From NCBI RefSeq assembly GCF_007990635.1, contig NZ_AP019846.1:992001-1056000 (forward strand): a stretch of 64,000 bases of DNA, given 5' to 3'. The translations under genes were made by a program, and so were the position numbers. This DNA is from Leptotrichia hongkongensis (lineage in GTDB: Bacteria; Fusobacteriota; Fusobacteriia; Fusobacteriales; Leptotrichiaceae). Below are positions 2,880 through 49,109 of this stretch, piece after piece (the first letter of the stretch is position 1; each line of letters begins with the position of its first letter). Below the pieces are notes generated by a model, which worked only from the letters and a program-made list of their open reading frames with translations, ran no database searches and had not been told where the DNA came from.

Positions 2880-4472
2880 ATGTATAAAGTATTAGTTGGG
2901 GAATATATTGATGATGAGGCAATTGCGGGACTGCAGGAAGCTAGAGATGTGAAAGTTGATGTGAAAGTTGGGATTTCACGTGAAGAAATTTTGGATATAA
3001 TTGGTGAATATGACGCTCTTATTGTGAGAAGTGTTATAAAAGTAGATAAGGAACTGCTGGATAAGGCAAAAAATCTGAAAATAGTTGGACGTGCGGGAAA
3101 CGGTACAGATAATATCAATATTCCTGAAGCGACTGCACATGGGGTAATTGTAGCGAATACTCCTGATAGCAATACGGTTTCGGCTTGTGAAATTGCAATT
3201 GGGCTAATGCTTGCTTCTGCGAGAAATATTGTTGCGGCAAATAATTTTATAAAAAGTGGAAAATGGGAAAGAGAAATATTTGTAGGAAGCGAGATGTTTG
3301 AAAAAACATTGGGTATTATCGGACTTGGAAGAATTGGTGGTTTGGTTGCTACGAGAATGAAAGCGTTTGGAATGAAGCTTGTTGCTTATGATCCGTATAT
3401 TTCAGATGAGCGTTTTAAGAGATATGGCTGTGAAAAGGTTAAAACATTGGATGAACTGCTGGAAAAAGCAGATGTGATAACTATTCATACACCTAAGACT
3501 AAAGAAACTGTGGATATGATAAATGCTGAAAATATTCATAAGTTAAAAGACGGTGTAAGGCTTGTAAATGCGGCACGTGGAGGATTATTTAACGAGGAGG
3601 CTGTGGCTGAAGGATTAAGAAGCGGGAAAATTGCGAGTTTTGGATATGATGTTCACACGGTTGAGCCACGTTCTGAATGTATTCTCTATGAATTTGAAAA
3701 TGTAATTACAACGCCACATATTGGGGCGACTACTTATGAAGCACAGCGAAATGTAGGGACTCAGGTTGTAAAACAGGTATTAAATGGACTTCGTGGGGAA
3801 ATAGTTGAAACGGCTGTGAATCTGCCTGCAATTGGAAGAGAAGAATTTTTAATTGTAAAACCATTTATAAATCTCGCTGAAAAATTAGGAAAAATTTATT
3901 TCCAAATTGAGAAAACTCCAATTACAAATGTTGTACTTAATTATTACGGAGAAATTGCCGAACAGGAAACTGCACTTGTAGATTCGACAGCAATAAAAGG
4001 GATTCTGGAGCCAGTTTTAAAAGAAGAAGTTAATTATATTAACTCAAAGCCTCTTGCTGAAAAAAGAGGGATTAATATTTCAATAAATAAAAAGGAACAT
4101 AAATATAAAAATTATTCTTCAGCAATAGAATTTGTAATAACAAATGAAGAAGGCAAGAAAATATATGTAGTCGGAACAATTGGAATGAATAACGAGGAAA
4201 GAATTATCAGCATAAAGAATCACGATGTGGATATGGCAATTTCTGACAATATGATTTACTTAGGAAATGAAGATGTGCCAGGAGTTATCGGAGCTGTGGG
4301 GGCAACTTTAGGAAAAGAAAATATAAATATTGCCACAATGAACGTAGGTAGACGTGAAAACAGTGCAATTATGCTGCTTACAGTTGACAGTGAAGTTGGT
4401 AAGAAATCATTGAAGGAACTTAGGGAACTGAGTCAGATAAAATGGGCTCATTATTTGGATTTGACAATATAG
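2880..4472 (+). CDS. serA: D-3-phosphoglycerate dehydrogenase
   Basis: SerA oxidises 3-phosphoglycerate to 3-phosphohydroxypyruvate with NAD+, the first step of serine synthesis. The 530-residue protein is the long form. The N-terminal substrate domain is followed by a Rossmann NAD domain with GLGRIG near residue 147, the catalytic arginine in NAARGG and histidine in TTPHIGATT, then an intervening domain and a C-terminal ACT domain (from about residue 455, DVPGVIGAVG) where serine feedback would act. GAGGAGG lies just before the ATG. It has its own promoter and no pathway neighbours in the window. Confidence 0.95.
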   Translation: MYKVLVGEYIDDEAIAGLQEARDVKVDVKVGISREEILDIIGEYDALIVRSVIKVDKELLDKAKNLKIVGRAGNGTDNINIPEATAHGVIVANTPDSNTVSACEIAIGLMLASARNIVAANNFIKSGKWEREIFVGSEMFEKTLGIIGLGRIGGLVATRMKAFGMKLVAYDPYISDERFKRYGCEKVKTLDELLEKADVITIHTPKTKETVDMINAENIHKLKDGVRLVNAARGGLFNEEAVAEGLRSGKIASFGYDVHTVEPRSECILYEFENVITTPHIGATTYEAQRNVGTQVVKQVLNGLRGEIVETAVNLPAIGREEFLIVKPFINLAEKLGKIYFQIEKTPITNVVLNYYGEIAEQETALVDSTAIKGILEPVLKEEVNYINSKPLAEKRGINISINKKEHKYKNYSSAIEFVITNEEGKKIYVVGTIGMNNEERIISIKNHDVDMAISDNMIYLGNEDVPGVIGAVGATLGKENINIATMNVGRRENSAIMLLTVDSEVGKKSLKELRELSQIKWAHYLDLTI

Positions 4473-6704: not shown

Positions 6705-6869
6705 ATGGCTATAATTGTAAAAAAAGGCGAATTAGCAAAAATAAATAAAGGAATGTCACAAAAGGGCTTGACTGAAAGACGTACTTATACAGTAAAAGAA
6801 TTTCCAGAAAGTAATCTTTCAAAAAAGGCTGAAGAAGCCTTGAATAAAATATTTTCATCTATGAAATAA
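6705..6869 (+). CDS. small basic protein in the hicAB operon
   Basis: A 54-residue frame, MAIIVKKGELAKINKGMSQK at the N-terminus and KKAEEALNKIFSSMK at the C-terminus, starting 19 bases after hicB with a GGAG ribosome site. Length, spacing and codon use look like a real third gene of the operon. I recognise no family. It could be a helper or an unrelated passenger. Confidence 0.5.
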   Translation: MAIIVKKGELAKINKGMSQKGLTERRTYTVKEFPESNLSKKAEEALNKIFSSMK

Positions 6870-31855: not shown

Positions 31856-31896
31856 AAAACTAATCATAAATTTAAATACATTTATGATTAGTTTTT
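31856..31896 (+). terminator. intrinsic terminator ahead of ssb
   Basis: AAACTAATCATAAA pairs with TTTATGATTAGTTT (14 bp) followed by TTG. It ends only 17 bases before the ssb ATG, so ssb expression may depend on readthrough. Confidence 0.7.
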
Positions 31897-31912
31897 GTCG
31901 TTAGGAGGAAAA

Positions 31913-32230
31913 ATGAATACACTTATTTTTAGTGGAAGAGTAACATTTAATCCTGAAATGATTTCAATTTCAGAAAAAAATGTTTGTAATTTTAGAATAG
32001 CCGCAAAAAAGAAATTTAAGGAAGAAACACAATTTTTATTATGTGTTGCTTTTGGTAATGTAGCAACATTAATACATCAGTATGTAAAAAAGGGAGCAAA
32101 AATAATTGTAAATGGTTATCTAGAATTACAAGAGTATGAAGATGAGAATGGAAAAAGAATAATACCTAAATGTATAGTTAAAGAGTTTAAATTAATGGAT
32201 TTTGTAGAAGAAGAGTATGAATATTTTTAA
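31913..32230 (+). CDS. ssb: single-stranded DNA-binding protein
   Basis: A 105-residue OB-fold protein: NTLIFSGRVTFNPEM, VCNFRIAAKKKFKEETQFLL, KKGAKIIVNGYLELQEYEDE. It lacks the long acidic C-terminal tail of housekeeping SSB but ends EEEYEYF, an aromatic-tipped acidic end. It would protect single-stranded ICE DNA during transfer. ATG 31913 follows TTAGGAGGAAAA. Confidence 0.82.
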   Translation: MNTLIFSGRVTFNPEMISISEKNVCNFRIAAKKKFKEETQFLLCVAFGNVATLIHQYVKKGAKIIVNGYLELQEYEDENGKRIIPKCIVKEFKLMDFVEEEYEYF

Positions 32231-32655: not shown

Positions 32656-34389
32656 GTGGCAATATTTCATCTTAGAATGAAAAAAAGTAAAAGAGGAAGT
32701 AGCTATATTCCGCCTGCTGCACATTTGGATTATATAAACAGAGATGAAAAATATGGTAAAAAAGAGGACTTACTTTTTAAGGAAGTAAGGAATCTTCCTG
32801 AAGAGTTTAGCGATATTAAAGATTTTTGGAAATGTGCAGAAACCTATGAGAGAAAAAACTCTAATCTGTACAGGGAACTTGAAATTTCATTACCGAGAGA
32901 GTTTACTCCTGAAGAAAATAAAAAGATGGTGGATAATTTTTGTGAAAATCTTTTTGGAAAAGAATATGTGTATAACTATGCAATTCACAATCCAAAAAGT
33001 TTTGATGGAGATATGCAGCCACACGTGCATATAATGTTTTTTGAAAGAAAAATTGATGATATTAAAAGGGATAAGGATAAGTATTTTAAGAGATATAATA
33101 CTAAAAATATAGAAAAAGGCGGATGGGAAAAGGATAAAAAATGGAGAGAAAGAAGCACGTTAAAAAATATAAGAAAAGAGTGGGAAACATTTTTAAATTT
33201 TGAACTTGAAAAAAAAGGAATAGAGAAAGTAAGTGCAAAATCGTTAAAGGATCAGAAAAGGGATGCGGAAAATAATAATGACTATAAGAAAGTTTATGAG
33301 TTAAATCGTGAAGCAATAAATATTGATGGAAAGATTTTGTATAGAAAAGAAAGTGAGCTAAGTGATAAGGAAAAAGTTAAGAAGAGAATATTTATTAAAA
33401 GCAGAATTTTAAAAGCTGGAACAGATTTAATGAAAAAACTGCTTGAAAAATTGAAAAAACTGGAAAGGGAATATGAAGATTTAAAAAGAGATAAAATAGG
33501 AGATTTAGAAAATTTGGAAAAACTGAGGGGGTTAGAAGAGAGTATAAGAGATATAAAAAAGAAGATGTCAAAAGATAAAATTGAGAATACTGTGTACAAC
33601 TTGATGACGGATAAAAAGTACTATAAATTTCTGAATGAGAACAAAAAAATTGACAAGGAACTAAAAAATATAAAAGATAAAAATAGAATAAAATATTTAA
33701 AAATTACAAAAGAAAAGAATTTAAAAAATTTAGAAAGTTTAAGAAATGAAATTCAGAACGACTGGAAAAAGAAGTATATTTTTGATAAAAGAGTTGGAAA
33801 TATTAGGGAAAAATATTTAAGGAAAATTGCAAATTTTGAAGATGAAAAAGACACGATATATGAAAATTTAAAAGAGAAAAACATTAAATACAATAATGAA
33901 AAAAATGGACTGTATAATATAAATCATTTGCAATTTATTTATGAAAAAAATGGACTGAAAGAGATAAATAGAATTGAAAAAGAACTAAAAAAATTAGTAA
34001 AAGAGTTAGATAAAAATGAGGAAATAGTCAGTCAGGAAACTTTGATAAAAGATAAATATTCAAATTATGAATTTTCAAAATTGGAGAAAAATATTGCGGA
34101 GAGTAAGATTAAAATAGAAGGACTGCAAAAAGAACTTAACAAAAATTTGGATATAAGTGAACAAAAATATTACTTGGACTGGTTAAAAAGAGAAGTAAAA
34201 ATAAAGGAAGATTATGAGGCAAGAAAAGAAAATATTGAAATAAAAATTCAAAAAAAATTGCAGGATGAACTTTTAAAAAATGGTAATTCCAAAGTTCAGG
34301 AAAGGGAAAAAGTTAAAAAAATTATCAAGAATATAGAAGCCATAAAAGTATTGGATAAGAAAAAAGATTGTCTGAAAAACGACAAGTAA
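32656..34389 (+). CDS. MobA/MobL-family relaxase
   Basis: The relaxase nicks the ICE at oriT and stays bound to the 5' end. The 577-residue protein starts with GTG after GGGGG. It has the MobQ-type signature: the N-terminal AIFHLRMKKSKRGSSYIPPA, RELEISLPREF, and the metal site DMQPHVHIMFFER. After residue 230 it is a long lysine/glutamate coiled coil. Two in-frame stops separate it from a readable 40-codon tail (34396-34518). It is the likely initiator of transfer. Confidence 0.88.
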   Translation: MAIFHLRMKKSKRGSSYIPPAAHLDYINRDEKYGKKEDLLFKEVRNLPEEFSDIKDFWKCAETYERKNSNLYRELEISLPREFTPEENKKMVDNFCENLFGKEYVYNYAIHNPKSFDGDMQPHVHIMFFERKIDDIKRDKDKYFKRYNTKNIEKGGWEKDKKWRERSTLKNIRKEWETFLNFELEKKGIEKVSAKSLKDQKRDAENNNDYKKVYELNREAINIDGKILYRKESELSDKEKVKKRIFIKSRILKAGTDLMKKLLEKLKKLEREYEDLKRDKIGDLENLEKLRGLEESIRDIKKKMSKDKIENTVYNLMTDKKYYKFLNENKKIDKELKNIKDKNRIKYLKITKEKNLKNLESLRNEIQNDWKKKYIFDKRVGNIREKYLRKIANFEDEKDTIYENLKEKNIKYNNEKNGLYNINHLQFIYEKNGLKEINRIEKELKKLVKELDKNEEIVSQETLIKDKYSNYEFSKLEKNIAESKIKIEGLQKELNKNLDISEQKYYLDWLKREVKIKEDYEARKENIEIKIQKKLQDELLKNGNSKVQEREKVKKIIKNIEAIKVLDKKKDCLKNDK

Positions 34390-34910: not shown

Positions 34911-35060
34911 CACGAACGAAGTGAGTTTTTGAGTGTAAACGAAAGCCATTTTTTCACAATTTTTTGTGGCAAAAAAATCACGGTAAGTTTCTAAAAATTT
35001 TTAAATTTGAGAAACTGGTAAGCGTGCTTTCCAAAATTTAGAAAAATTTAGGAAAGTTTA
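34911..35060. repeat. multi-hairpin non-coding block, oriT or RNA candidate
   Basis: This non-coding stretch holds several inverted repeats: GTTTCT with AGAAAC around 34986-35014, CTTTCC with GGAAAG around 35029-35058, and CACAATTTTTTGTG (34957-34970). The first 40 bases (ACGAACGAAGTGAGTTTTTG) are GC-richer than the flanks. Its position between relaxase and transfer operon suits an origin of transfer, but no nick site is recognised. Confidence 0.4.
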
Positions 35061-35085
35061 TGGGGAAAAAATTTTAAAAAAGAAC

Positions 35086-35114
35086 TTGACTTTTTGAAAA
35101 AATTGAAGTAATAT
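35086..35114 (+). promoter_or_regulatory. promoter of the transfer operon leader
   Basis: TTGACT and TAATAT with a 17-base spacer. Transcription would start near 35121, at the head of the structured leader. Confidence 0.65.
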
Positions 35115-35120
35115 TAGTAT

Positions 35121-35320
35121 AAGAATAAAACAGCGTAAAAAATGAGAGTCCAGTTATGGAGGTGGATGGACAGTTTAACAAAGGTGATTTTACTTCAACT
35201 CATTTTAAAATAATAAAAGAAAATTTAATAAAATAAAAAATTAAATATCATAAGCCATTAGAGCTAGGTACAGTATTATCGGAAAAAACATTTCTGAGAT
35301 ATTGTACTAGCTCTTTTTTT
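35121..35320 (+). ncRNA. structured leader RNA ending in an intrinsic terminator
   Basis: Between promoter and VirB2 lies a 200-base region with no long frame but clear pairing. AAAATGAG (about 35138-35145) pairs with CTCATTTT (about 35199-35206), enclosing GTCC/GGAC and AAGGT/ACTT stems. At the end AGAGCTAG-G-TACAGTAT pairs with ATATTGTACTAGCTCT, followed by seven T (35260-35320). This is a small RNA or an attenuator that controls the transfer operon. It matches no riboswitch class that I know. Confidence 0.55.
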
Positions 35321-35340: not shown

Positions 35341-35373
35341 ATGAAATTAAGTTTAAATAATAGAAGTCCTTAA
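35341..35373 (+). CDS. possible 10-residue leader peptide
   Basis: ATG at 35341 has a strong AGGAGG site 6 bases upstream and reads MKLSLNNRSP. It lies between the leader terminator and VirB2. It may be a leader peptide or the stub of a lost gene. Confidence 0.3.
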   Translation: MKLSLNNRSP

Positions 35374-35430: not shown

Positions 35431-35796
35431 ATGAAAAAAATAAAAATTAAGAATGTATTGTTAAATAAAAAATTTCAAATGTTGTGCCTGATGATTTTGT
35501 TTTTGACAACAACTGTGATAAGTCAGGCAACTACAAGTGGAAATGCAGGAATATTTGCAACGCTTGTAACTTTTCTTACAAATATGAATAATGGACTGAA
35601 AATAGTTTTTTCACTTGGTGCTATTGGGTGCATAGGATTTGGAGTATTTAAGATGTTGACTGATCCAAACATGACAGCAATAATAACTTTGTTAATAGGA
35701 GTGGCTTTGGCACTTGCACTTATTTTTGGTTCAGAGGATATAGTAAAAGGACTTGGTGGAACTATGATTGATACAGCTCTTTTGAAAGGGGTATAG
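35431..35796 (+). CDS. virB2: VirB2/TrbC-type pilin
   Basis: A 121-residue protein with a long signal (MLCLMILFLTTTVISQA) and two membrane helices (IVFSLGAIGCIGFGVFKML and IITLLIGVALALALIFG) separated by a short loop, the classic VirB2/TrbC layout. Monomers would build the conjugative pilus. AAAGGATG precedes the ATG. It heads the transfer operon in the usual order. Confidence 0.8.
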   Translation: MKKIKIKNVLLNKKFQMLCLMILFLTTTVISQATTSGNAGIFATLVTFLTNMNNGLKIVFSLGAIGCIGFGVFKMLTDPNMTAIITLLIGVALALALIFGSEDIVKGLGGTMIDTALLKGV

Positions 35797-47950: not shown

Positions 47951-48427
47951 ATGGAATTATATGAAAGAATAATACCAAAAACTTCTTCAACAAGTTATAT
48001 ATCCGGATGGGAAGCATTGAATATTCCTGATGAAAATAGAAATACTGCTGATTGGCATCCAAGAACTTATTTATTTTCTTATGATAAAGACAAGGCAATA
48101 AATCTGTATAACACGACAAATATTTTAGGAAATTCTGGAATAAAGAAAAGAACAATAGATTATCCAAGTAAAAGGGAAGTATATATTGCTAATTTTCCAA
48201 GAGCGATTGCAGATTTGGTATTAACAATGAAGGATTATCAGTTACCTTCGCTTCATAACTGCTGCAGTGATTTTTTAAATGAAGATGAAACGGAACAGCT
48301 TTATCAGTATCTGAGAAGTATAAAGGATAATCCAAGAGTGGATGAGTTTCTTAAATATGAATTTACTGTAAGATATTTTAATGATAAGGAGCTTTATGAT
48401 GAAAGAGTGGCAGAAGGACAGAATTGA
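47951..48427 (+). CDS. antitoxin-like partner of an AbiEii toxin
   Basis: A 158-residue protein of unknown family (SGWEALNIPDENRNTADWHP, DYPSKREVYIANFPRAIADL). It overlaps the toxin-type nucleotidyltransferase gene and carries its ribosome site, the arrangement of type IV toxin-antitoxin pairs. GAGGTGGG precedes its ATG. It may be the antitoxin or an adaptor. Confidence 0.6.
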   Translation: MELYERIIPKTSSTSYISGWEALNIPDENRNTADWHPRTYLFSYDKDKAINLYNTTNILGNSGIKKRTIDYPSKREVYIANFPRAIADLVLTMKDYQLPSLHNCCSDFLNEDETEQLYQYLRSIKDNPRVDEFLKYEFTVRYFNDKELYDERVAEGQN

Positions 48428-49109
48428 TATAATAAAAAAAATTTTACCAAAATTAGGTGAAAATTATGTTTTAAAAGGTGGAACAGCTTTATTATTATAT
48501 TACGGATTAGATCGTTTTTCAGAAGATGTTGATTTGGATTCAATTAGTGGAAATATGAATATACTGAATAAATTAAAAACTATTGGACAGAATAAATGGA
48601 ATATGAGCATAAAAAAAGATACAGGAACAGTTTTTAGAGTAATGGTTGATTACGGAGCAACGAATAACTATGGAGATTATCCTTTAAAAATTGAAATTTC
48701 TTCCCGAAATAAAAAATTTTTACAATCTAAAATTTATGATTATAAAAATATTGCAGGAGTTAATGTCTATTCATTAGATGAAATTTTAAAGATGAAAATA
48801 AGAGCATTTAATGATAGGGATAAAATAAGAGATTTTTATGATTTGTCCTATTTTTTGAAAAAACAGCCTGAAAAATTTACAAAAGATATGCTGTTAGACT
48901 TTAAAGAGCGTATGGATTATAAAAATTTGGATACCTTATCATATTTATTAAAGGAAGAATTTGAAAAAAATGAATTAAAGGATATTTCAAAAAATTCAGA
49001 AGAAATAGTTTTAGAAACATATGATAAGATTGAAAATTTAGTTATCAATTATTCTAAAAATAAAAATTTGGAATTAAATTCTGAAAAGAATAAAGAAATG
49101 GAAAGATAA
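48396..49109 (+). CDS. AbiEii/AbiGii-type nucleotidyltransferase toxin
   Basis: A 237-residue nucleotidyltransferase with LKGGTALLLYYGLDRFSEDV followed by DLDS, the polymerase-beta-like GG-(x)n-DxD motif, then YPLKIEISSRN and MKIRAFNDRDKIRDFYDLSY, typical of AbiEii. These toxins modify tRNA or block growth, giving phage abortive infection or element maintenance. ATG 48396 (or 48399) follows AAGGAG inside the partner gene; 32 bases overlap. Confidence 0.82.
   Translation: MMKEWQKDRIDIIKKILPKLGENYVLKGGTALLLYYGLDRFSEDVDLDSISGNMNILNKLKTIGQNKWNMSIKKDTGTVFRVMVDYGATNNYGDYPLKIEISSRNKKFLQSKIYDYKNIAGVNVYSLDEILKMKIRAFNDRDKIRDFYDLSYFLKKQPEKFTKDMLLDFKERMDYKNLDTLSYLLKEEFEKNELKDISKNSEEIVLETYDKIENLVINYSKNKNLELNSEKNKEMER

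Follow-up and report, generated by a model that had tools for sequence, protein, structure and literature searches.

A conserved structured RNA beside a putative MOBQ-type oriT in Leptotrichia: candidate attenuated leader of ICE virB operons and stand-alone RNA on plasmids

Analysis of a 64,000-nucleotide stretch of the genome of Leptotrichia hongkongensis, from a genus of oral bacteria (hereafter the window), revealed a structured RNA unit of about 200 nt lying directly 3′ of a transfer origin and ahead of the virB-type transfer operon of an ICE. From sequence comparisons we slightly favour, at barely better than an even chance, a double role for this unit: in ICEs it would serve as the attenuated leader of the virB operon, and on plasmids that lack cognate transfer genes it would be an RNA in its own right, linked to oriT. 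The ~200-nt RNA would have a promoter of its own, placed within the leading region of a MOBQ-type oriT. In ICEs, RNA polymerase would halt by default at a terminator, T1 (and at a second one, T2, in copies that have it), so that a short, stable RNA results and the T4SS stays off, and the transfer genes would be expressed solely via read-through. On plasmids, the promoter, core and terminator travel with oriT. Since the module accompanies oriT on plasmids that lack cognate transfer genes, the RNA probably also acts by itself within the transfer-origin module.

The complete oriT and RNA module occupies positions 34911–35320 (window coordinates; the parts of the module, the relaxase gene, the ten-codon ORF and virB2 are all on the + strand), and its 5′ part, through 35248, shares 80–86% identity with Leptotrichia plasmids. 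A sigma-70-type promoter, TTGACT-17-TAATAT, lies at 35086–35114. It was called a good promoter in an earlier note on this DNA, a description weakened by its match score of just 9/12 in the window copy but strengthened by its presence in 15 of 16 homologous copies, the sixteenth being truncated. Downstream is a three-stem core (35139–35206) made up of helices P1 (35139–35146/35199–35206), P2 (35148–35152/35167–35171) and P3 (35172–35174/35192–35194). The P2 loop contains GGAGGUG (35158–35164), a perfect complement of the anti-Shine-Dalgarno sequence of 16S rRNA; the loop reads GGAAGUG in three of the 16 copies. An A/T-rich linker (35207–35259) joins the core to the intrinsic terminator T1 (35260–35320), a bulged stem of 24 bp with a folding energy of −26.7 kcal/mol, followed by seven T. 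A simple terminator scanner did not list T1, whose long stem has bulges.

Folding of the whole 202-nt unit gave −41.8 kcal/mol (z = −3.9), a value equalled by none of 200 shuffled sequences. The succession of promoter, nested stems and terminator described in the earlier note is thus borne out, and its placing of the terminator 110 bases before virB2 agrees with the measured distance of 110 nt from the T1 T-run to the virB2 start. The z score of the unit comes mainly from T1. Folded by itself, the three-stem core has z = −1.2 in the window and −0.6 to +0.2 in the homologues, and the minimum-energy fold differs from the core structure in two homologues. The core alone is not unusually stable; its structure is supported by conservation and covariation.

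That support comes from the covariation check proposed in the earlier note, which the structure passed with compensatory pairs in P2, P3 and the terminator. Among 14 distinct sequences, 100% of the pairing cells of the core are paired, and sliding the core arms against each other as a control left no comparable pairing signal. Compensatory pairs occur in P2 (two of five) and in P3 (one of three). The P2 variants are GTCCA/TGGAC, GCCCA/TGGGC and GCCTA/TAGGC, with G-U intermediates, and those of P3 are AGT/ACT and AGG/CCT. P1 is invariant in the 16 copies; in a Leptotrichia trevisanii copy one P1 pair has changed from A-U to G-U with pairing retained. The terminator shows six compensated pairs across homologues. 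Doubly changed core pairs were not above those in shuffles (157/500), few independent lineages having been sampled. These compensatory changes point to a conserved RNA structure, although through few independent events.

Searches with BLAST and with a covariance model derived from 16 sequences gave 16 homologous copies, spread over nine of the 13 Leptotrichia genomes; the 85 genomes of other Fusobacteriota had none. Low-score BLAST matches in other genera resemble A/T-rich chance matches, and the covariance model finds nothing there. Seven copies precede virB2 in ICEs and nine are in plasmids, plasmid remnants or plasmid-like loci, including those of L. wadei, L. shahii and L. hofstadii; one plasmid-type copy is chromosomal, in the window's own genome (G000:C1:389429-389505). 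PLSDB contributes further L. wadei and L. trevisanii plasmids with the module. A pattern scan of 84,980 species, from which near genomes were left out, returned only two Leptotrichia contigs, and searches of phages and IMG/VR found no module copies; a search of IMG/VR for the VirB9 protein likewise gave no match. The earlier note knew of no riboswitch class that fits, and Rfam indeed yielded no family at the gathering threshold or even at E ≤ 5. Because of this lack of an Rfam match, we regard the unit as a predicted new RNA family whose function is of a known kind and whose attachment to oriT is unusual.

Comparison of ICE with plasmid copies shows which parts the two groups share. The post-nic repeat and the promoter are each 86% identical and the core 82%, against 44% in the promoter-to-core stretch, 58% in the linker and 39% downstream, and therefore the common module consists of oriT, promoter, core and terminator. 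The T-run of the terminator is kept in all copies. Plasmid copies compared with one another are 96% identical in the core, 98% in the linker and 89% downstream.

The putative oriT (34987–35056) lies directly upstream of the RNA unit and reads GTTTCT...GAGAAACTGGTAAGCGTG/CTTTCC, the stroke standing for the presumed nic. Its first part (34987–35026) comprises the inverted repeat GTTTCT...GAGAAAC followed by TGGTAAGCGTG, and a second inverted repeat, CTTTCCAAAATTT...ATTTAGGAAAG (35027–35056), begins at the presumed nic, which by analogy with IncQ would fall between 35026 and 35027. An inverted repeat and nic core near a gene for a MobA/MobL (MobQ-type) relaxase (32656–34389, upstream of oriT) suggest an origin of the IncQ/MOBQ kind. 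As in the IncQ/R1162-type oriT, the inverted repeat GTTTCTC/GAGAAAC is followed by GGTAAG-G-G-C; the Leptotrichia site differs in its core, TAAGCGTGC instead of TAAGTGCGC, and in having an additional hairpin 3′ of nic as well as the RNA unit. The IncQ oriT letters used as the query are present in 197 plasmid records, 192 of which are typed mobilizable. The oriT pattern occurs in 16 of 98 genomes, as compared with one for a reversed control pattern, and the RNA is directly 3′ of oriT in 15 of its 16 copies, the exception being the truncated one. If the analogy holds, the strand transferred would be the + strand, and the RNA region would be the first part to enter the recipient. In other Fusobacteriota ICE loci a similar oriT is found either close to a divergent relaxase gene, at a distance of up to about 150 nt (L134, L137, L138, L139), or between the relaxase and virB genes (L129, L130, L141), and in other genera a hairpin likewise occupies the post-nic position. 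The site offers an oriT signature for Fusobacteriota. Relative to the relaxase and virB genes, oriT is inverted in L129, L130, L133 and L141 as compared with the window (34987–35032), so that in those genera the other side leads.

On the 3′ side of the unit, a virB2/trbC-like pilin gene (35431–35796) is the first gene of the transfer operon. Its Pfam TrbC match (E = 7e-4) is below the curated cut-off, and the assignment also draws on its position ahead of VirB8, VirB9 and VirB10; genes for a coupling protein and VirB11-like, VirB4 and VirB6 proteins are also present. Elsewhere in the element, an SSB gene (31895–32230) is upstream of the relaxase gene and an AbiEii-type toxin gene (48381–49109) is 3′ of the virB genes. 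In the ICE copy at G001:C1:1065006-1066728 the relaxase gene is broken by several stops and the leader is intact. Between T1 and virB2 lies an ORF of ten codons (35341–35373, MKLSLNNRSP) with AGGAGG upstream. It is kept in all seven ICE copies, reading MKLDLNIRSP in five, and its significance is uncertain.

The arrangement fits an attenuated leader: a promoter comes first, then an intrinsic terminator, and only then the operon's first gene. Furthermore, five of the seven ICE copies possess a second, near-identical 24-bp terminator (T2) 3′ of the ten-codon ORF. Only 22 nt separate the end of T2 from the virB2 start codon, space for a ribosome-binding site and nothing more, and because this leaves no room for a promoter, transcription of virB must read through T2. 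Across the ICE copies, the highest score of a promoter match in the interval from T1 to virB2 is 9/12, and in the window a weak match within the 110 nt overlaps the virB2 start codon. A promoter between terminator and operon thus appears to be absent from the five T2 copies; for the window this is less certain. Folding of truncated leaders predicted neither a cis antiterminator nor an alternative fold, and for this reason regulated read-through, the putative control point, is an assumption of the model. With no mutually exclusive antiterminator found, the reading of the core as a junction RNA that senses a ligand is also unsupported, and no recognisable RNA-binding antiterminator is present among the element proteins checked.

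ICEs of other genera (L127, L129, L130, L137, L141) likewise have a terminator (−17 to −33 kcal/mol) 28–105 nt before virB2. In L129, L130 and L141 promoter-like sites precede it and a leader hairpin shows compensatory changes, although the leader sequence differs from that of Leptotrichia; some of these terminators could merely close upstream transcription units. In the same three loci, which belong to another Leptotrichiaceae genus, a ribosome-binding site, an ATG and an immediate stop (ATGTGA/ATGTAA; ~3990–4010, +, in L129) lie between terminator and virB2, where Leptotrichia has the ten-codon ORF. In addition, L141 and L130 carry degenerate extra leader hairpins (GTTAGnCnGCGAGCTAAC) 100–200 nt upstream of the virB2 terminator, which suggests repeated duplication of the attenuator hairpin, as for T1 and T2 in Leptotrichia.

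The earlier note had proposed an attenuator or a standalone small RNA, having overlooked the upstream oriT, the homologues, the plasmid copies without relaxase, the ten-codon ORF and the duplicate terminator. Attenuation is well supported in ICEs by T2, 22 nt before virB2, and by the analogous terminators elsewhere, but relaxase-less plasmids have no transfer operon to attenuate. Three genomes with plasmid copies (G002, G004, G008) lack both a cognate relaxase and a VirB9 homologue; the L. hofstadii plasmid encodes a 'plasmid recombination protein' and the L. shahii plasmid encodes MobC. On plasmids the next gene, relB, is about 400–500 nt 3′ of the unit, so that no obvious target of attenuation is present there. 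A role in the control of plasmid replication is unlikely, as the ICE copies precede virB2 and the plasmid rep gene is ~1 kb away on the other strand. The module could explain how Leptotrichia plasmids typed 'non-mobilizable' may spread.

We considered several other explanations. To the possibility that the unit encodes a trans-acting sRNA that modulates, or is required for, the mobilization of whatever DNA carries this oriT, T1 being merely its end and the proximity of virB2 incidental, we give a modest minority chance. It accounts well for the constant position beside oriT, for the nine copies in plasmid-type contexts without a virB operon and for the conservation of the core among plasmids, and it has a precedent in sgm-sRNA of SGI1, which adjoins oriT and is essential for transfer (PMC9299015). 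However, it leaves unexplained both the duplicated terminator before virB2 and the terminators that other genera have in the corresponding position, and neither a target nor a partner was found: CACCTCC, which would pair with the P2 loop, is absent from the + strand of the window, and the best duplexes fall at scattered positions with no evident pattern. Conversely, plasmids may simply have captured the ICE leader along with oriT, the RNA being idle there, and we see a small chance of this. The close relationship among the plasmid copies, seen in linker and downstream sequence too, means that conservation need not reflect selection, and one copy (L043) is truncated, with oriT and promoter lost. 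Yet plasmid copies retain promoter, core pairing and T-run while the promoter-to-core stretch varies (60%), and changes in P2 on plasmids pass through G-U and are always paired, as in P1 of L. trevisanii.

There is a slim chance that the folded element functions as DNA, in single-stranded form on the transferred strand; entering the recipient first, it would be a single-strand origin or a priming signal. Its place in the leading region downstream of oriT recalls sso1 of ICEBs1, a folded element that works as single-stranded DNA (PMC4595007), and the promoter arm can pair with the 3′ arm of the core (35091–35114 with 35187–35210). This promoter-forming hairpin, expected in the transferred strand of an sso, is not kept in the homologues, where 14–19 of its 24 pairs can form, whereas all 13 core pairs form in every copy. 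Moreover, the conserved promoter and T-run point to an RNA whose sense is that of the presumed transferred strand, on which it cannot prime, and G-U intermediates fit RNA better. That the unit encodes a small regulatory peptide and no structured RNA is barely credible. GGAGGTGGATG resembles a ribosome-binding site and start, and a 21-codon frame is open in plasmid copies, but in ICEs this frame is absent or different (the L037 group lacks the ATG and the window has a 5-nt insertion) and pairing alone is conserved across both groups.

The favoured reading, attenuated leader in ICEs and stand-alone RNA on plasmids, has partial parallels elsewhere. The prgQ leader of the Enterococcus plasmid pCF10 gives short terminated RNAs at the IRS1/IRS2 terminators as well as a full-length read-through transcript, and shares with the Leptotrichia unit a promoter, an untranslated leader and tandem terminators before a conjugation operon (PMC8265641). 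The sequences are unrelated, however; pCF10 has the antisense RNA anti-Q and pheromone control whereas here neither an antisense transcript nor a pheromone gene was identified, and the Leptotrichia leader is fused to an oriT module that is also found on plasmids without cognate transfer genes. The sgm-sRNA of SGI1, too, is a structured RNA encoded next to the oriT of a mobile element, but it derives by processing from a longer mRNA, at the 3′ end, and its partner is the tyrosine-recombinase-type MpsA (PMC9299015), whereas the Leptotrichia RNA comes with a promoter and terminator of its own and with a relaxase of MobQ type. In the pWBG749 family of Staphylococcus aureus, non-conjugative plasmids without a cognate relaxase of their own bear an oriT belonging to a conjugative element, which can mobilise them (PMC4652767); the Leptotrichia module adds promoter, RNA core and terminator, and its mobilization would follow by analogy.

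A bolder proposal, to which we give a minority chance on the low side, is that this genus-specific RNA belongs functionally to the transfer origin itself: produced in cis next to nic, it would be required for efficient transfer and would for that reason be carried with oriT by plasmids without a cognate relaxase, the ICE having also built the same RNA into a T4SS attenuator. If true, one RNA couples origin activity with transfer-gene expression. The module makes a role of RNA in transfer initiation testable, SGI1 being the closest precedent found. Among the open-literature titles searched for Leptotrichia with ICE or oriT none concerned this subject, and the control of fusobacterial conjugation appears little studied.

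Finally, several plasmid loci show further features. The L. wadei plasmid pJCM16777-1 (L036) bears two modules in opposite orientation, at 6868 (+) and 10322 (−), about 3.3 kb apart. In the L. shahii plasmid L043, the second copy, at 1038 (+), has core and terminator without oriT and promoter and adjoins a transposase-like ORF. Filamentous haemagglutinin/two-partner secretion genes or their C-terminal fragments, with small genes alongside, are present on several module-bearing plasmids, namely L145 (20714–32144), L035, L036 and L044.
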